The position numbers and the translations under genes are program-made. A stretch of 33,585 nucleotides of DNA, from NCBI GenBank assembly GCA_028874315.1, contig JAPPKM010000131.1, forward strand, positions 1-33,585, given 5' to 3'. The DNA comes from Chloroflexota bacterium (GTDB lineage: Bacteria > Chloroflexota > UBA11872). The first letter of the stretch is position 1. Each line of letters starts with the position of its first letter. Positions 7,836 to 26,566 of this stretch are shown here, piece by piece. The notes beneath the pieces were generated by a model, which searched no databases, had not been told where the DNA came from, and saw only the letters and a program-made list of their open reading frames with translations.

Positions 7836-8108
7836 ATGACGGTGGACCTGACCGCCATTGAGATCGAGCGTCGGCTGACCGCCATCGAGACCACGCTGGA
7901 GACCACGCTCCCGACCTTCGCAACGAAAGCCGATGTCCATTCGTTGAAGGCCGACATGCACGCGCTGAGGACCGAAATCCAGGCCTCGCGAGCCGAATGG
8001 AAGTCCGACCTCCACAGCCTGACCCGCTGGATGGTGATTGCCGTGCTTGGGTCAATTACTGCCGCGGCCACCATCACAGGATTGATTGTTCGGTTCATAG
8101 GCACCTGA
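7836..8108 (+). CDS. Small coiled-coil protein with C-terminal membrane anchor (copy 1)
   Basis: 90-aa protein of unknown function. I choose the ATG at 7836 (MTVDLTAIEIERRL) because a GAGGG ribosome site lies about 9 nt upstream and the two relatives in this window share this exact N-terminus. Residues 1-60 are heptad-like and charged, with the repeat unit TKADVHSLKADMHALR. About 20 hydrophobic residues follow (MVIAVLGSITAAATITGLIV), and the protein ends a few residues later. The predicted form is a cytosolic coiled coil tethered to the membrane. It resembles short CCDC90/DUF1640-like bacterial proteins. A shorter copy lies directly downstream and a third at 21707-21901. Confidence 0.7.
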   Translation: MTVDLTAIEIERRLTAIETTLETTLPTFATKADVHSLKADMHALRTEIQASRAEWKSDLHSLTRWMVIAVLGSITAAATITGLIVRFIGT

Positions 8109-8460: not shown

Positions 8461-10074
8461 TCAGTCGTCCGACGGCTCGACCGCAAACGAATACAACTCT
8501 GCGTTCCTCATCACGAACCGCAGCCGCCGGTGCGGGACGAACCGGGTGTAGACGGTGCCGGAGTCGGCACTCTGGGGGAACGGCAGATTGGCGTCGCCCT
8601 GCCAGGTGACAGTGTGACGGACGCTGTCGCCGGTGAAGGAATCCGACTCCTGCAGTCCGCGACCGGGTAGCACCCGATCTCCGGCGTCGCGAACCTCGAC
8701 CTTGAGATAACCGCCGGTACCGCAGGCCGCGTTGATGACCAACCGGTCCCCCTCCGACACAAGCGGCTGTGTGGCCACCATCCCCTCGCGTCTTCCGCCG
8801 GCCCCGACAGAGACAAACCCATCGCGCCGCAGCTTGCCGATGCCCAGCGCATACCGGGGATCGCTCGCTGCACCTGCTGAAGAGTCTTTCGGCTCATTCT
8901 GATCCTCTGCGTACCAGAGATCGTGCTGCGAAGTCGCGCCGCCGAAGTAAACCCAGGTCTCGTCCCCCACGTTCAACATGCGAGGAATCCCGATCTGGTT
9001 GGCGCACCAGCTCCCCGGCTCCCCCAGGCCAATCCAGTCATGCGTGGGCGCCAGCCGTTCCCACTGGCGCCCGTCGCGGCTATTCACCAGTTCGACCGTT
9101 GACGTGTTGGACACCTGGTGAAACACGCCCAGGAACCCGATCCAATGCCCGCCCATACGAAACGGACGCATCCCGTAGAAGGCCACGTCCAGGTTGTCCA
9201 GCGCAGGGTCCGGCGCGAGGATCAGCCGCGGCTCGCTCCAGTTCACAAAGTCGCGGCTCTCGCACATGAAGACGCGGCGGACGACCCGCCGATTGGGTGT
9301 AGCCATCACCGCATCAAAGCTGGGCGCGCCGCCCACCATCGGCGCGTGAGTTGGCCGCGTGCGCGGCGCCAGTTCCATCAACGGGTGGCGCGTGACGATT
9401 CGATAAACACCGCTATCGGGATCGAATGTCGGAAATATCGTGTCGCCCAGCCGGTCGCCCAGCGACCCGAACCTGGGCACCTCATCCGCCGGCGTCCAGA
9501 GGATTCCATCTGGTGAGTACGCCAGCCGGATGTGCGCGCCCGGCGTCTCGTCGGCCACCCGGAAACCGGGCGGACCCAACTCGTAGAGCATCTTGTAGCG
9601 GCGCGCCGGTTCCTGCTCCAGCGGGTCGTCCAGCAGCGCCGGGCCCCAGACGTTTCCATACGTCTCGCTGCCGAAGACAATGTTGGTGTCGTGCCCGCCT
9701 TCCTCCACGATGCCCATGGCGGGCTTCTCCCAGTTCAGCCCGTCCGGCGATCGCGCATACATCACCCTGAACCGGCTGACGTGCCAGTCAATCATCGTCC
9801 CGCCCTCGCGCGCCAGCCTGTCGCGGTCCAGCGCCATGTCGGTGTACAGGCAGTGGAACCCGCCGTCGTCGTCCCGCCACAGCGCCCAGTCGTCCGCGCC
9901 GAAGTTGGTGAAGTGCTCCCAGGGCCGATCCAGTTGCAGCACCGGGTTCCGCTCGAGCCGCCTCGGCGCATGCACCGTGCGCCGAATGTTCTGGATCTCT
10001 TCGATCAGCCCGTTGTCGAAGAAGTACTGCGGCCTGTCACCGATGATCAGTTCGGTGGAGTCAAGCCCGGTCAC
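8461..10074 (-). CDS. Beta-propeller glycosidase-like protein 1
   Basis: Probable five-bladed beta-propeller protein, loosely like the GH32/43 fold, 537 aa from the GTG at 10074. The ORF track starts at 10191 inside the upstream gene. The GTG is preferred because AAGGAAGG lies 5 nt ahead of it and the paralogues begin at the matching motif (YFFDNGLIEE against LFLDLDEVAA). Repeated blade signatures such as VMYARSPDGLNWEKP, IRLAYSPDGILWTP and VELVNSRDGRQW are the S/P-DG-xxW turns of these propellers. The last ~90 residues form a separate beta-rich domain (LKVEVRDAGDRVLPG ... LRFVMRNAELYSFAVEP) also found in the two paralogues. No signal peptide. It ends an operon with an esterase-like hydrolase and an ADP-ribosylglycohydrolase. 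Reaction unknown; a glycan or glycoside substrate is inferred. Confidence 0.75.
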   Translation of the reverse strand: MTGLDSTELIIGDRPQYFFDNGLIEEIQNIRRTVHAPRRLERNPVLQLDRPWEHFTNFGADDWALWRDDDGGFHCLYTDMALDRDRLAREGGTMIDWHVSRFRVMYARSPDGLNWEKPAMGIVEEGGHDTNIVFGSETYGNVWGPALLDDPLEQEPARRYKMLYELGPPGFRVADETPGAHIRLAYSPDGILWTPADEVPRFGSLGDRLGDTIFPTFDPDSGVYRIVTRHPLMELAPRTRPTHAPMVGGAPSFDAVMATPNRRVVRRVFMCESRDFVNWSEPRLILAPDPALDNLDVAFYGMRPFRMGGHWIGFLGVFHQVSNTSTVELVNSRDGRQWERLAPTHDWIGLGEPGSWCANQIGIPRMLNVGDETWVYFGGATSQHDLWYAEDQNEPKDSSAGAASDPRYALGIGKLRRDGFVSVGAGGRREGMVATQPLVSEGDRLVINAACGTGGYLKVEVRDAGDRVLPGRGLQESDSFTGDSVRHTVTWQGDANLPFPQSADSGTVYTRFVPHRRLRFVMRNAELYSFAVEPSDD

Positions 10075-10136: not shown

Positions 10137-11228
10137 TCAACCCTGCGTCAGCTGCTCCACCAGCCATGGTTCGGCCGTCACTCCGTACCACTGGTGCTCC
10201 CCTGGCTGTACATCGTGCACAAGGCAGTCGCCGCCGTCGTGCAGTGCGTACGCCTCGCGCGTGATGGCCACCTGTTCGTACACGTTGTCCAGCCCCCGCG
10301 CCCCGTTCAGCGGATCCTCGTCGCCGGTCTCGATCAGCAGCGGACGTGGCGCGATCAGCGCGCCCAGGTCACCCATGTCCACGGCCTGCCACAACCCGGG
10401 AACGTAGTTGCAACCGCAGTTGCTGTTCAGGTCCAGCAGCGAGTCGCGATAGCCGTAGAAGTAGCCGCTCACCACCGCCGCGCAGATCCGGTCGTCCATC
10501 GCCGCCAGCCACAGGGTTTGCAGCCCCCCGCCGCTGAGCCCGGCGCACCCGATGCGCTCCGGATCGCAGTCGTCCCGAGTCATAACGTAGTCCACCAGCC
10601 GCATCAAATCCCAGGTCCACATGCCGGTCACGGTCTGCCCCAGCGAGATCGCCGCGAAATTCAGCGGCGTGCAGGTGGACCGCATGAACGATTCTTCGTC
10701 ATTCGCCTGCCCCACCGGTTCGCGTCGCTCGCCAAAGGCGCGGGCGTCGGACGCAAACACGATCAGTCCGGCTTGCGCATAGCGCTCCGCATAGGCGCCA
10801 TTGTGTTTCTCGATGGTGTCGGCCACGGCCGGAATATCGCGTCGACCCGCCGTCATGTTCTTGCCCCCGCTGCCGTGCCCGTGCGGTGCGATGACGACGG
10901 GGCGCCGCTCGCCGGCCTGCAGGTCGTCCGGCAACAGCGCATATAGGGGCATGACGACGCCCGGCTCAGTATGGATCTCCATCCGCTGACGCACGTAGCC
11001 GTCGCACTGAACCGACTCGGTTACGACGGACCCCGGATCCGCGAGCCGCAAGCTGTCGATCCCCGTAATCGACGACAAGTGCCGGCGCGTCTCCTGGCGC
11101 CACGCCTCAAAGGCTGCCACGCCGCTCGTGTCTACCGGCATCTGGCGCGCCTCGCGGTCGAACCGCGCCTGCAGTTCGGCATGAGCCGGATAGAAGCGAG
11201 TGACCGTGGGAACGCGAGGAGTCGCCAT
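10137..11228 (-). CDS. Alpha/beta hydrolase, acetyl-xylan-esterase or dienelactone-hydrolase type
   Basis: 363-aa cytosolic alpha/beta hydrolase. The nucleophile elbow is G-L-S232-G-G-G, the acid is probably D303 or D305 (TGDEDPL), and the catalytic His is H345 (GEHQWYG). VVIAPHGHGSGG (111-122) is the oxyanion strand and loop. The sequence resembles the large bacterial branch near acetyl xylan esterase and Abhydrolase_7 proteins, with a ~100-residue N-terminal extension typical of that group. It is the middle gene of a three-gene operon (87 nt after the ADP-ribosylglycohydrolase, 62 nt before propeller protein 1). De-esterification of a substrate handled by the propeller protein is a reasonable inference. 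No signal peptide is seen, so it should act inside the cell. Confidence 0.8.
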   Translation of the reverse strand: MATPRVPTVTRFYPAHAELQARFDREARQMPVDTSGVAAFEAWRQETRRHLSSITGIDSLRLADPGSVVTESVQCDGYVRQRMEIHTEPGVVMPLYALLPDDLQAGERRPVVIAPHGHGSGGKNMTAGRRDIPAVADTIEKHNGAYAERYAQAGLIVFASDARAFGERREPVGQANDEESFMRSTCTPLNFAAISLGQTVTGMWTWDLMRLVDYVMTRDDCDPERIGCAGLSGGGLQTLWLAAMDDRICAAVVSGYFYGYRDSLLDLNSNCGCNYVPGLWQAVDMGDLGALIAPRPLLIETGDEDPLNGARGLDNVYEQVAITREAYALHDGGDCLVHDVQPGEHQWYGVTAEPWLVEQLTQG

Positions 11229-11315: not shown

Positions 11316-12329
11316 CTACGCGAGAAGCGCTTCTCCACGCGCGCGGTCAGCGTTCAGCCGCGCCGTCAGGACCTCCAGCAACGAGTCCGCCAGCTCCTCC
11401 TGATTCACAGGCGTCGCGGCCTGCACCTGCGCGGCCCATTCGGGCCGAATACCAGAGGCTCCGGACATCGCCCCGGCAACCGGACCGCCCATGGCGCCAA
11501 TGGAGTCGGCGTCGCGTCCGAAGTTCGCCGACATCAGCGCGACCTCGTTGGGATCGCCGTCGGCCAGGAGCAGCAGGGCCAGCGCCACAGACGCCGACTC
11601 GCGCGGGTCTACCGCATTGCTGTGCCCCTCTTCGGGCTGCTGCGGCCAGTCCCACAGGTGATCGGCGTAGTAGGCGGCGCGGAACTCGGCAAAGTCGCCA
11701 GTCGACCGCGCCAGGCTCACCGCTGTATCAATGGCCGCGGGCATATCGCTTTCGGGATCCAGGTTGCCGAGCGCCGCCTCGATGACTGACTCGGCATCGG
11801 CGTTCGGATCGAAGGCCGCGGCCGTGGCGGCGGCCATGGCCAGGGCGCCGTCTTGCGGCGAGCCGCGATGGATCAGGCTGGTGACCTCGTACGCTTCCAG
11901 CATCGCCCGGCGGGGGTCGCCCGCGTTGACGATCCCGATCGGCGAAATGCACATCGCCGTGCTGTTGGAAATCATGTTCCCGATGCCCGCCTCGCGGGCC
12001 CTGACCCCTCCAATCGAGATCTTGTAGAAGGAACTGGCCACCGGCGGATAGAACTTGAACGGGTTCATCCGCTCGCGCCACACCTGCGCCCAGGCCGCCG
12101 CATTGACGTTGCCGTTCGTTCGCCCGATCGCCTCGCACAACATGTGCTTCAGGGCCGAGTCGTCGGTGCCCGCGCCCGGCTGCAGCCCCCGGTGCTCCTT
12201 GAGCGTGGTGACCTCGCCATGGCGCTCTGCGATGAACTCGTAGTGCAGCCCCTCCACCGGCCCGCCCATCGCGTCGCCCAACAAGCCGCCGAGCAGGCAT
12301 CCCATGATCTTGTCGCGCAAGTCAGTCAT
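11316..12329 (-). CDS. ADP-ribosylglycohydrolase family protein
   Basis: 337-aa all-alpha hydrolase of the DraG/ARH family, which removes ADP-ribose from proteins or cleaves ADP-ribosyl compounds using two Mg ions. The ATG at 12329 is preferred over the track start 12 codons upstream because GGAG lies 6 nt before it and MTDLRDKIMGCLLGGLLGDAMG is the standard N-terminus. Metal-site residues are GTDDS (T55-D56-D57-S58) and the C-terminal FGRDADSIGAMGG motif. Length is normal. It is the first gene of an operon with an esterase-like hydrolase and propeller protein 1. Some members of this family cleave other N-glycosidic substrates, and the operon hints at a catabolic role rather than protein de-ADP-ribosylation. 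Confidence 0.88.
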   Translation of the reverse strand: MTDLRDKIMGCLLGGLLGDAMGGPVEGLHYEFIAERHGEVTTLKEHRGLQPGAGTDDSALKHMLCEAIGRTNGNVNAAAWAQVWRERMNPFKFYPPVASSFYKISIGGVRAREAGIGNMISNSTAMCISPIGIVNAGDPRRAMLEAYEVTSLIHRGSPQDGALAMAAATAAAFDPNADAESVIEAALGNLDPESDMPAAIDTAVSLARSTGDFAEFRAAYYADHLWDWPQQPEEGHSNAVDPRESASVALALLLLADGDPNEVALMSANFGRDADSIGAMGGPVAGAMSGASGIRPEWAAQVQAATPVNQEELADSLLEVLTARLNADRARGEALLA

Positions 12330-13528: not shown

Positions 13529-14377
13529 ATGCTCGACTTCACCCGCTCCTTCATCACCTGGACCACCAATCCCAGGAAACCCCATCCCTATTACCGCTGG
13601 GATGGCGGCTTCGTCGGCGACCTTGGCGACGTCTACCGCGTGCGCATGCAGGTCGACTCGACCATGGACATCATCAGTCCTTCTGGATCGTCGATCACCC
13701 ACTACCTCAACTACCCCTGCCGCGCCGAGCTCACGATCGCGACCGAGCAGTTCTTCATGATCCCCAGCGGCGAGTGGCGGGCGGTCTTTACCCGCGAGCA
13801 CGGCGTGCCGATCGCGCGGGGTCCGTCGGACGTCCCCGAGCCCGTCGCCCGCAGGCCGGTGCTCGAGCGCTACGCGGACATGGATTTCCAACCCGTCACA
13901 CTCCCCGGCGCCGAACGGCTCCTCGACGGCCACGCCGTCAACGAAGCCACCCAGTCAGGCGCCGTCATCAACGGCCAGACCACCTACCGCGACAAGGCCA
14001 CCGGACTGGACATTCGAGTCGAGTTCCCAATCCGCCTCATGAACCTCCACCCCGACTCCGGCAAATTCCAGCTCTGCTGCGGACCGGTCATCGTTCCCGA
14101 CATGGCCACCTGGGACGGCGAGGGCGTGGACCGCGTGTTTCTGGCCGAGGTTGCCTTGAGCCAGTTCGACTACGTCGAGTTCATCCTCCGCCGCGAAATC
14201 GAGCCGGCCGAGAGCGAAAAAGAGTGGTTCCACCAGGTCCGCGGCCGCGACCGCCTCGAACTCTGGGACCCCAACAACCCACCGCCCCAGCCCCTCGTAC
14301 TTCAGCGCCCCCGCCCCCACGTCTACCACGAGACCTGGGCATTTGACTCGGAAAACGTGATCCTGCGCGCGCCCTAG
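13529..14377 (+). CDS. Conserved-looking protein of unknown function
   Basis: 282-aa protein I do not recognise. The ATG at 13529 (MLDFTRSFITW) is chosen because it avoids overlap with the upstream kinase gene that the track start would create. The sequence is rich in beta-type segments and aromatic residues (HPYYRWDGGFVGDLGDVYRVRMQV, TIATEQFFMIP, KFQLCCGPVIVPD), suggesting a soluble beta-sandwich or barrel. There is no signal peptide, no membrane segment and no obvious catalytic motif. Codon use matches the neighbours, with a strong C/G bias at third positions, so it is a real gene. It may form an operon with the kinase (38 nt gap). Confidence 0.65.
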   Translation: MLDFTRSFITWTTNPRKPHPYYRWDGGFVGDLGDVYRVRMQVDSTMDIISPSGSSITHYLNYPCRAELTIATEQFFMIPSGEWRAVFTREHGVPIARGPSDVPEPVARRPVLERYADMDFQPVTLPGAERLLDGHAVNEATQSGAVINGQTTYRDKATGLDIRVEFPIRLMNLHPDSGKFQLCCGPVIVPDMATWDGEGVDRVFLAEVALSQFDYVEFILRREIEPAESEKEWFHQVRGRDRLELWDPNNPPPQPLVLQRPRPHVYHETWAFDSENVILRAP

Positions 14378-15149: not shown

Positions 15150-16577
15150 CTAGGTCAGCGCGTAGGCGTGCAGCCTCGCGGCGCCGTGGATGTGGAATCT
15201 CAGGCGAACCTGCCGCCGACCGCAGGCGCCCAGTTCCGCGCCCTGCCAGCTGGCCGCAGCCCGCACATTATCGACCGCCAGCGGCACGCACTCCTCGCGG
15301 CTGAATCCGGGAATCACCTCGCCCGTCTCCGCGTCGAGCACTTCGACGTCCACCCAGCTCCGCCGCGCAATCACGTCCGCCACGTTCGCGTTCAACCGCG
15401 TGTCCGGCGCTATCGCCAGCGGCGTCGTCTCCAGCGACCCCGAAATCTCCCGGTCCACCGTCTGCATGCACGTGAACCCATCCAGCCGCAGCGTCGCCAG
15501 GCCCAGCTGCGTCAGTCGAACGGACCCACTCTTCCCGCCCCCGAACTCCTTGGGATAGTTCCCCGGCGGCCAGAGGCTCCAGTCCTCGCCCTGCCCGCTG
15601 TAGTAGATGTAGATGGTGTCGTCCTTGACGATGATGCGGTCGCCAATCACAAGGAATCCGGCGTCCCACGCGCCCCGCTCGCCCCGCGGGATCACCTTGT
15701 CGGTCAGGCAGATGCGCGAGAAATGCTCGCCGTCCTTGCTGACGGCCAGCCGCAAGTCCGCTGCGTACTGTCCGAACACCCCGAGCCCGTTGGGCACGTA
15801 CCAGCCGAACTCGTACACCGAAATCCAGCCCGTGCCGTACCGGTCCAGCGTCAGGAAGTGGTTCTCCTGCTCCAGCCCATCCTTGGGATCGAGAAACGGG
15901 TTGTCGGGACTGGACGTGAACTTCTCGACGCTTGGTCCGTAGGCGATGAACTTGCCGCGGACGGTTGCCGGCCCTGGCTTGGCCGCCGGTACACGTTCTT
16001 GCCAGATCAGGATGTATCGACGATCCGGGTCCGTGGCCTGCTCGTCCAGCGCCAGGACCACAATGTCCGGACCATGCGACAGCGCCGGCAGGTCGACGGC
16101 CGGGCCCACGGTCCAGTGAATGCCGTCCGGCGAGTACGCGGCACGCGCCGGCCCGCTCCCTACAAGGTCTTTCGTGACCATCTTGAACCGGCGCGCAGGG
16201 TCGGGCTCCGTCGGATCGCGAATTACCGCCCCCAGCATGTCCAGGCAGATGTTGTTGTCCTTGGACCCGTTGAACTCGAAAAGCCCCAACTTCGGCTTGA
16301 TCCAGCGGATGCCGTCCTCGCTGTAGGCATAGCCCATGCGCCGCCAGCGCAGGCGCTCCTGGTCGGCTCCCGTGTACCAGCACTTGAACAAGCCGTCGTC
16401 CGGGTCGTACAGCACCGTCCGCACCGACCACACACTGGCCCGCACCGCGTCCCACTCGTCCAGCCGCCCCACCGGCAGCACCGGATTCGCCGGATGCTTC
16501 GTCGCCTCGCACACCCGCTGCTCCACGTTATGCGTGGCCGCAACCTCGTCCAGGTCCAGAAACAGGTGTTTTGTCAT
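15150..16577 (-). CDS. Beta-propeller glycosidase-like protein 2
   Basis: 475-aa paralogue of the 8461-10074 and 25130-26566 proteins. It starts MTKHLFLDLDEVAA and shows the blade turns AYSEDGIRWIKP, AYSPDGIHWTVG and AVSKDGEHFSRI, as in five-bladed GH32/43-like propellers. YDPDDGLFKCWYTG fills a conserved first-blade strand. The last ~85 residues make the shared beta-rich tail (WVDVEVLDAETGEVIPGF ... RQVRLRFHIHGAARLHAYAL). There is no signal peptide, so it is probably cytosolic. It lies 105 nt downstream of a sulfatase and 80 nt upstream of a Rid protein, all on the minus strand. A role in breaking down a sulfated sugar compound is inferred, not shown. Confidence 0.75.
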   Translation of the reverse strand: MTKHLFLDLDEVAATHNVEQRVCEATKHPANPVLPVGRLDEWDAVRASVWSVRTVLYDPDDGLFKCWYTGADQERLRWRRMGYAYSEDGIRWIKPKLGLFEFNGSKDNNICLDMLGAVIRDPTEPDPARRFKMVTKDLVGSGPARAAYSPDGIHWTVGPAVDLPALSHGPDIVVLALDEQATDPDRRYILIWQERVPAAKPGPATVRGKFIAYGPSVEKFTSSPDNPFLDPKDGLEQENHFLTLDRYGTGWISVYEFGWYVPNGLGVFGQYAADLRLAVSKDGEHFSRICLTDKVIPRGERGAWDAGFLVIGDRIIVKDDTIYIYYSGQGEDWSLWPPGNYPKEFGGGKSGSVRLTQLGLATLRLDGFTCMQTVDREISGSLETTPLAIAPDTRLNANVADVIARRSWVDVEVLDAETGEVIPGFSREECVPLAVDNVRAAASWQGAELGACGRRQVRLRFHIHGAARLHAYALT

Positions 16578-21706: not shown

Positions 21707-21901
21707 CTACGTCCAAAACCGGCCGATCACCGAAGCGATCGTGCCGGCGAACATTGCCGCGGCCAGCACCGACCCAACCATCCACTTGATAAGGCGCGTC
21801 TCCAGGGCGTGCAAATCGGCCTTGGTCGCGACGCTGGCGGCCATCGCATCAATCCTGGACAGCCGGCGCTCAGTTTCCAGGGCGTGCAGCTCGACCGTCA
21901 T
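21707..21901 (-). CDS. Small coiled-coil protein with C-terminal membrane anchor (copy 3)
   Basis: 64-aa third member of the family seen at 7836-8417. The ATG at 21901 is preceded by GGAGG 5 nt upstream and gives MTVELHALETERRL, matching the MTVDLTAIEIERRL start of the other two. The coiled-coil unit VATKADLHALETRLIKWM leads into a hydrophobic end (VGSVLAAAMFAGTIASVIG). The track ORF adds a spurious 44-residue leader. It is convergent with the aldo/keto reductase gene and about 13 kb from the tandem pair. The conserved anchor but variable stalk length suggests a lineage-specific family. Confidence 0.7.
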   Translation of the reverse strand: MTVELHALETERRLSRIDAMAASVATKADLHALETRLIKWMVGSVLAAAMFAGTIASVIGRFWT

Positions 21902-22097
21902 CGGCTCCTCCATGAACCGGGATCCCGGATTCCTGTCGTCCAGACGATGGTGGCCCACCGCACCGCCCAGCAAGAGAGCCTGCAGAAATCCTAGCGCACG
22001 GCCCTCAATTCGAGCGCCAGAATCGTTGCGCAACTCGGCCTCACTCGGACCCGTCCCTCACGAGCTACGGCTGCCGCGTTGAACCCGTTAATCGAAT

Positions 22098-25129: not shown

Positions 25130-26566
25130 ATGGGCACTGAACTAATGCACCTCGGCTCGCGCAAACACCTCTTCATCGACCTCTCCCTGGCCGACCACAC
25201 GTCCAACGTGACCCTCGGCGTCAATCCCCCGCGGCTGGGCGGCATCGCCATCGGTCGCGACCGCGCCTGGGAGCATCACATCCACTTCCAGAACACCGTC
25301 CTCGACGACAACGGCCTGGGCCGCTGCTGGTACCTCGCGTCGATAATCCGCAGGGGACTGGAGTCCGCGCGGTTTGGCTACGCGGAGTCCGAGGACGGGC
25401 GTCACTGGCGCAAGCCCAACCTCGGCTTGGTCGAGCTCAACGGCCGGCGCGACATGAACCTCATCCCGCCCAAGCCCAAGCGCTCCAACGTCTTCATCGA
25501 CCCCACGGCGCCTCCCGCAGAGCGCTACAAGACCTTTGGCCTCAGCCTCGATGGCGATCCCGGAGGCGATGGCTACGGCGTCTTCGCTTCCCCCGACGGC
25601 TACGTCTTCCGCGAGCTTGGCTGCAACGGCCTCCGGCTTGCCGGCGACACCCAGAACATGGCCTTCTGGGACGACCGCATCGGACGCTACGTCGCCTACT
25701 TCCGGGGCTTCTCCCACCATCCCGACGGCCGTCGCCGCCGCGCGGTCGCCCGCTGGGAAACCGACGACCTCACCAGCCGCGAGGGCTGGGACCTGTCGAA
25801 CGAGGAGAGCGACCGCCACATCATCAACCAGCTGCCCATCGTCATCGCCTGCGACGACGACGACCCGCCTGACATGGACATCTACACCCCGTCTGTCGTC
25901 AAGTACCCAGAGGCTGAGGACGTCTACCTCGCCACCATGTCCATGTACCACCACTTCACCCCCGACGAGATGGACGACACAGACCCGCCCCGCAACGACG
26001 GCCTTATGGACATCCAGCTCGCCGTCAGCCGTGACGGCATCTCCTGGGACCGCCCCGACCGCCGCCCCTACGTCGGCATCGACGCCGAAGGCCCCGGCCA
26101 GCGCATGTGCTACGCCGTCCAGGGCATCCTGGTCCGCGGCGACACCGTCCTCCAGTACCACACCGCCTACGACCAGTCCCACGGCCACAAGCGCCAGAAC
26201 AACCCCGGCGGCGTCATCCGCTGGACCGAACAGCGCTTGGATGGCTTCGTCAGCGCCAACTTCGCCTACACCGGCGGCGAACTCGTCACCCGGCCAATCA
26301 CCTTCGACGGGTCCAAACTGATCCTCAACGTCGACGCCTCAGCCTCCGGCGAAGGCCGGGTCGAAATCCAGGACGCCCACGGCCGCCCAATCCAGGGCCG
26401 CACCCTCGCCGACTGCGACCGCATCCTCGGCAACTACCTCCGCCACCCCGTCACCTGGGGCGGCGACCCAGACCTCGGTGTACCCCCCAACACCCCCATC
26501 CGCCTCCGCCTCGCCCTCCGCAGCGCCCGCCTCTTCGCGCTGCAATTCGCCGGAGCGAGCATGTAG
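25130..26566 (+). CDS. Beta-propeller glycosidase-like protein 3
   Basis: 478-aa third member of the propeller family in this window. A strong GGAGGTG site lies 5 nt before the ATG. It begins with the family motif KHLFIDLSLADHTSNV. Blade turns are visible as AESEDGRHWRKP, FASPDGYVFRE and AVSRDGISWDRP, and CWYLASI matches CWYTG in copy 2. The beta-rich tail (GRVEIQDAHGRPIQGRTLADCD ... RLRLALRSARLFALQF) matches the other two copies. No signal peptide. It is monocistronic on plus, divergent from the 839-aa membrane protein. Reaction unknown; the family is presumably active on glycosides or acts as a sugar-binding protein. Confidence 0.75.
   Translation: MGTELMHLGSRKHLFIDLSLADHTSNVTLGVNPPRLGGIAIGRDRAWEHHIHFQNTVLDDNGLGRCWYLASIIRRGLESARFGYAESEDGRHWRKPNLGLVELNGRRDMNLIPPKPKRSNVFIDPTAPPAERYKTFGLSLDGDPGGDGYGVFASPDGYVFRELGCNGLRLAGDTQNMAFWDDRIGRYVAYFRGFSHHPDGRRRRAVARWETDDLTSREGWDLSNEESDRHIINQLPIVIACDDDDPPDMDIYTPSVVKYPEAEDVYLATMSMYHHFTPDEMDDTDPPRNDGLMDIQLAVSRDGISWDRPDRRPYVGIDAEGPGQRMCYAVQGILVRGDTVLQYHTAYDQSHGHKRQNNPGGVIRWTEQRLDGFVSANFAYTGGELVTRPITFDGSKLILNVDASASGEGRVEIQDAHGRPIQGRTLADCDRILGNYLRHPVTWGGDPDLGVPPNTPIRLRLALRSARLFALQFAGASM

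Follow-up and report, generated by a model that had tools for sequence, protein, structure and literature searches.

Three proteins of the window (the whole stretch of 33,585 nucleotides analysed here), designated P1, P2 and P3, belong as old members to a single multi-phylum family of propeller proteins. The family has a familiar fold, is without a name in the libraries searched, and is undescribed. P1–P3 are best filed as a variant of the five-bladed sugar-enzyme kind, outside GH32, GH43 and GH130. For their activity, residue roles and substrate we infer, with a probability of about 0.55, that they are glycoside-cleaving hydrolases acting on imported small glycosides.

The preliminary description had taken the three ORFs to be paralogous, and mutual BLASTP bore this out. 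P1 matched P2 with an E value of 6e-33 over 534 aligned columns, P1 matched P3 with 9e-23, and P2 matched P3 with 2e-16. Five-bladed GH32 and GH43/GH130-like proteins from the same lineage reached only E 0.15 at best against P1–P3. This placed the relation among the three far above that to unrelated propellers, the comparison that the preliminary description had proposed. The common F-x-D opening, the SxDGxxW turns and the C-terminal beta domain, which it had also pointed out, were conserved over 126 family members. Asp20 of P1, in the opening, was conserved in 88% of these, and the turns of P1 lie at S109/D111/W115, S187/D189/W193, S273/D275/W279 and S332/D334/W338. The family is defined here by these three features together with Asp211 and Arg266, and P1, P2 and P3 carry all of them. 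The start codon of P1 is GTG; an alternative upstream GTG at 10191 is possible.

All three genes evolve under purifying selection (dN/dS 0.07–0.16). Compared with congeneric copies, dN/dS was about 0.1 for P1, 0.07–0.09 for P2 and 0.11–0.16 for P3; one P1 sequence from genome G016 with a frame break (dN/dS 0.53) was set aside. Identity to the congeners was 94–97% for P2 and 86–90% for P1.

Table. Genes and candidate pocket codons of the window (family percentages from 126 members)
Feature	Position	Strand	Evidence or remarks
P1, five-bladed propeller protein with C-terminal beta domain	8461-10074	minus	537 aa; ORF, BLASTP, model, Foldseek
P2, five-bladed propeller protein	15150-16577	minus	475 aa; ORF, BLASTP, model, Foldseek
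P3, five-bladed propeller protein by homology	25130-26566	plus	478 aa; ORF, BLASTP, synteny
Alpha/beta hydrolase (Abhydrolase_7), 62 bp upstream of P1	10137..11228	minus	Pfam, synteny
ADP-ribosylglycohydrolase-fold protein (PF03747; ADPRGH), upstream of the esterase	11316..12329	minus	Pfam, synteny
Rid family protein (PF01042), immediately downstream of P2	14668..15069	minus	Pfam, synteny
Sulfatase (PF00884, SGSH_C), directly upstream of P2	16683..18056	minus	Pfam, synteny
P1 Glu53 codon, PWE motif before blade I	9916..9918	minus	Glu/Asp 92%; P2 Asp43, P3 Glu48
P1 Asp211 codon, at the beginning of blade III strand 1	9442..9444	minus	acidic 96%; P2 Asp171, P3 Asp173
P1 Arg266 codon, at the beginning of blade III strand 3	9277..9279	minus	Arg 99%; P2 Arg207, P3 Arg204
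P1 Asp293 codon, before blade IV	9196..9198	minus	acidic 83%; P2 Asp233, P3 Asp245

P1 and P2 were modelled by AlphaFold2 from a 46-sequence alignment (mean pLDDT 85 and pTM 0.87 for P1; 80 and 0.84 for P2). In both models, a beta domain came after a series of repeated beta blades. The propeller fold that had been claimed was thereby supported for P1 and P2 by confident five-bladed models, and for P3 by homology.

When the two models were searched against the PDB with Foldseek, the five-bladed sugar-enzyme fold recurred down the whole top 50, the nearest folds being GH130, GH137, GH159, GH32 and GH43. GH32 and GH43 gave the lowest E values (to 4e-13), yet superposed poorly, with rmsd mostly 14–27 A over two-domain alignments. 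Superposition was better with GH130 (target TM to 0.69, the best whole-fold score; rmsd from 5.3 A), with GH137 BT_0996 and GH159 (target TM 0.56–0.62; best values 0.61–0.62 and 0.60, respectively), and with the GalNAc deacetylase 6n1a (TM 0.53). The likeness to GH137 and GH159 lay in the fold; they differed in giving no sequence-profile match. The top match in the sequence-profile search of the PDB was 6n1a (E 4e-12), followed by the GH130 entry 9fj8 (E 6e-12).

P1–P3 fell into no Pfam family and gave a single chance match only. The 17 paralogues of the own genome matched two Pfam families, once each and weakly (E 0.013 and 0.049), neither of which was PF04041. NCBIfam matches were all far under the cut-offs, including those of P1 and P2 to the beta-1,2-mannobiose phosphorylase model. 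No description of the family was found in the literature, and a plasmid search matched one remote hypothetical protein. Since neither Pfam nor NCBIfam models this family, annotation surveys based on them miss it, and the missed family reaches about 36 copies per 3–4 Mb genome.

Like GH32, the family joins a five-bladed propeller to a C-terminal beta domain, and with GH43 it shares the propeller. On the other hand, the inner-strand acids of blades I and II in GH32 and GH43 are not conserved in it. There was no PF00251 match and no NDPNG-type strand (columns 54–67 were at most 8% acidic), a motif that the genuine GH32s from the same lineage do have. Among the GH43-type inner-strand acids of blades I–III, the blade III position (Asp211) alone was conserved. 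The profile-profile scores were weak, with a probability of 17% for GH32 (hhalign) and 13% for a GH43-like family.

GH130 is alike in its propeller and whole-fold score, and its W-E segment of blade I and S-x-DG turns could be aligned with those of the family by sequence profile. It differs in that the P1–P3 family has no PF04041 match and possesses an additional C-terminal beta domain. On the Pfam evidence, with neither PF00251 nor PF04041 matched, the family was rejected as a member of GH32 or GH130. The GH130 likeness would also fit a phosphorylase, in which a conserved pair of Arg would bind phosphate, which would attack a cytoplasmic glycoside at its anomeric carbon to give a sugar phosphate. 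The fold score, the leading place of GH130 among the profile matches, the two conserved Arg of blade III and the apparent cytoplasmic location of the proteins are consistent with this. Against it, PF04041 was matched by none of the 17 own paralogues, position 229 is Gln in P2, and the inner strand of blade II, as placed by topology, has no conserved acid. The invariant catalytic Asp of GH130 is Asp142 of BT3780, with equivalents Asp131/Asp104 (PMC4599007). At the expected place of this Asp, the start of blade II, every column of the family was at most 25% acidic, in a register set by topology and not by superposition. We consider a phosphorylase of this kind unlikely.

The FpGalNAc deacetylase of Flavonifractor plautii (6n1a/6n1b) belongs to the same propeller class. 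It was the best single PDB profile match, aligned over blades III–V, and ranked high in Foldseek, as would suit a carbohydrate esterase or deacetylase with a metal in the propeller pocket. The metal site of the FpGalNAc deacetylase is made of His/Asp ligands. In contrast, the P1–P3 family lacks a strongly conserved His for metal binding, no propeller column exceeding 60% His among the 126 members, and a separate esterase already adjoins P1. A metal-dependent deacetylase was not favoured because of the His pattern, and we regard it as very improbable.

Conservation was calculated over the 126 members with redundancy weighting, in P1 numbering, and the codon positions in the Table were computed from the P1 ORF. 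The candidate pocket is formed by Asp211 and Arg266 with Glu/Asp53 and Asp293, placed on the pocket face by propeller topology. Asp211, Arg266, Asp293 and an acid at position 53 (Glu/Asp/Glu) are common to P1–P3. Position 229 is Arg in 66% and Lys in 17% of the family, and Arg/Gln/Arg in P1/P2/P3. Position 298 is Glu in 37%, Gln in 23% and Asp in 15%. By topology, 229 and 298 also fall on the pocket face. Other conserved acids, namely D68, D150 and those of the SxDG turns, are interpreted as belonging to hairpins or turns. The preliminary description had suggested one chemistry for the three proteins; this is unproven, and at position 298 P1 has Ala, P2 has Glu and P3 has Asp.

That Ala in P1, at a position mostly taken by Glu, Gln or Asp, and the absence of several classical catalytic acids of the five-bladed families would be in keeping with non-catalytic propellers that bind sugars or regulate. 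Against such a role, Asp211 and Arg266 are almost fully conserved over several phyla, the genes are paired with enzymes in probable operons, and no DNA-binding or anchor domain was found by Pfam. It appears quite improbable. The Asp211/Arg266 signature matched none of the known families compared, and chemistry on sugar acids or amino sugars would suit the nearby Gfo/Idh oxidoreductases and Rid. A non-hydrolytic reaction on the same scaffold (lyase, isomerase, epimerase or transglycosylation) could account for both. The close fold relatives with a known reaction, however, either break or make glycosidic bonds or remove acetyl groups, and we hold such a reaction to be rather unlikely.

The three gene contexts were found as had been described: the ADPRGH and Abhydrolase_7 genes beside P1, the sulfatase and Rid genes beside P2 (by Pfam), and no co-directional enzyme partner adjoining P3, which has a fixed place between the AKR/membrane protein and an MFS gene. 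The alpha/beta hydrolase beside P1 showed weak glucuronoyl-esterase similarity. The sulfatase contains a CxPSR motif, and a signal peptide was not evident. The gaps within ADPRGH-esterase-P1 and within sulfatase-P2-Rid are just 62–105 bp in the window, which suggested that both groups are operons. P1 is thus probably the last gene of the former and P2 the middle gene of the latter. The gap between P1 and the esterase was about 1 kb in several congeners.

Mapping of the window genes onto the congeneric genomes gave the order ADA, P1, esterase, ADPRGH, an unknown protein X, Rid, P2, sulfatase, a molybdenum hydroxylase-like gene, AKR, membrane protein, P3, MFS and TPP enzyme. This order was fully or almost fully kept in G010, G011, G014 and G015, and partly in G008, G012, G013, G016 and G017. 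Among the variants, G012 is without P1, G016 is without the sulfatase beside P2, and G015 is without the membrane protein. The locus is the feature that the genus has in common, and the association of the propeller genes with sulfatase and esterase held up in the conserved gene order.

Several other features of the locus were observed. Protein X (13529-14377; 282 aa), between the two gene groups, is 89–98% identical in the congeners and had no Pfam match. The Rid-P2 pair is duplicated in tandem in G010 (G010:C20:61816-66746; L274, L275), where the second P2 copy is 91% identical to that of the window. The segment 27055-28396, with two genes between P3 and MFS, one for a trypsin-like protein and the other unknown, was unmatched in the syntenic congeneric loci, and is probably a recent insertion for this reason. 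Two similar small proteins, coiled-coil-like and each with a single membrane segment, are encoded at 7836-8108 and 21707-22033, and five such proteins lie in tandem at L079:13415-15617 (contig C82).

Elsewhere, family copies have as neighbours two sulfatase genes (L076), genes of ABC transporters (L069, L078) and dehydrogenases of the Gfo/Idh type. Of 76 neighbours, 3 were sulfatases and 4 were Gfo/Idh proteins, a small enrichment with numbers too low for a statistical claim; in a control of 105 proteins, both were outside the 25 commonest families. About 2.6 kb from one family member lies a distinct five-bladed-like propeller (L075:4100-5185; G000:C38) with GH43-like acids in NDHCLI, CRDPHVL and VESPCVI; most congeneric genomes contain this propeller.

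By a crude hydrophobicity test, no strongly hydrophobic N-terminal segment was detected in P1–P3, the esterase or the sulfatase, and one was detected in the solute-binding protein of the window. P1–P3 appear to be cytoplasmic. The own genome contained 23 sulfatase matches and a homologue of the formylglycine-generating enzyme; therefore the sulfatases can be active. Sulfatase and propeller counts were positively correlated over 19 genomes (Spearman 0.75), mostly reflecting a difference between two genera (within-genus rho 0.44, p 0.13).

We favour hydrolysis because the best whole-fold matches of the confident models are sugar enzymes, and because near-invariant charged residues at the topology-predicted pocket face occur together with purifying selection and a kept gene order. 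The case is weakened by the non-conserved carboxylates of blades I and II, by the weak GH32 and GH43 profile scores, by the small neighbour enrichment and by the largely between-genus nature of the sulfatase correlation. The sugar would sit in the central propeller pocket, where Asp211, at the start of blade III, and Glu53, at the edge of blade I, may serve as acid and base in a single-displacement reaction. Arg266, with Arg229 where present, would bind the substrate, and Asp293 would hold ring hydroxyls. The sulfatase of the P2 operon, and the esterase and ADPRGH of the P1 operon, may strip decorations or process the released unit. The most economical reading would be that imported sulfated or acylated small glycosides are cleaved in the cytoplasm, and the kept sulfatase-P2-Rid and ADPRGH-esterase-P1 groups suggest sulfated and esterified small glycosides as testable substrates.

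The preliminary description had also proposed a lineage-specific expansion. The multi-copy part of this was correct, as the paralogue count gave 22 family matches in the own genome, which spans 3.34 Mb at 87% completeness. About 16 of them were near full length, three of these in the window, and 16 had sufficient length for tree building; several copies were interrupted by contig ends. The lineage-specific part was not. In a quick tree of 96 members with long branches, the 15 own copies needed 14 label changes, and 288 of 500 label shuffles did as well. The AU test rejected P1, P2 and P3 as a single clade (p = 0.00056) and all own copies as a single clade (p 4e-5), with likelihood differences of 483 and 5376 units, respectively. 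Lineage-specific duplication was rejected on the tree and on these tests; copy numbers are similar in unrelated lineages.

The only private clade of the own genome was a tandem pair on C145. Close within-lineage duplicates were few, namely this pair and P1 with L071/L072. P1, P2 and P3 fell into three clades, which include members of other families or phyla. P1 grouped with copies from the same order and, more loosely, with those of Caldilineaceae, Gemmatimonadetes, SAR202, Planctomycetes and Acidimicrobiia. P2 grouped with relatives from a different family within its class, and P3 with copies from Gemmatimonadetes, Caldilineaceae, Planctomycetes and relatives in its class. The scatter of the own copies and the AU rejections suggested that many old subfamilies are kept side by side, and the spread over phyla points to old functional subfamilies rather than recent copying.

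The 12 other genomes of the genus had 10–36 matches each, and six genomes of the sister genus 6–8 each. In the phylum sample, 28 of 301 genomes had the family at E 1e-20. Two Caldilineaceae genomes had 24 and 28 copies; copies numbered 24 in a Planctomycetaceae MAG, 17 in an Acidimicrobiia MAG, 9 in a Gemmatimonadetes MAG and 6 in SAR202. Of 119 genomes sampled from the phylum to which the Planctomycetaceae MAG belongs, 13 had the family, with up to at least 14 copies. The per-genome counts in the 301- and 119-genome samples are lower bounds, a subset of candidates having been scored.

The nearest relatives were Chloroflexota MAGs, which by isolate names and the literature on sponge Chloroflexota are probably sponge symbionts. 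These bacteria have been described as rich in carbohydrate-active enzymes (PMC8163846, PMC6306507). We tentatively suggest, at somewhat less than even odds, an undescribed glycoside-processing family with its own pocket signature that serves sponge-associated Chloroflexota and some other aquatic bacteria as a major cytoplasmic toolkit for cleaving sugars. If so, many ancient subfamilies would coexist, kept for substrates that differ and are in part sulfated or esterified.

Two further copies were observed in this survey. A 93% copy of P3 on C43 (L077; G000:C43:1-4921) has the same MFS neighbour. It was rejected as a P3 paralogue on account of this neighbour and a divergence at the between-species level, and probably comes from another strain or species binned together with this one, the MAG thus containing some redundant sequence. 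At L070:8004-9626, a family member is interrupted by an in-frame TAG and is possibly a pseudogene; sulfatase-like, nitrilase-like and PhyH-like genes lie near it.
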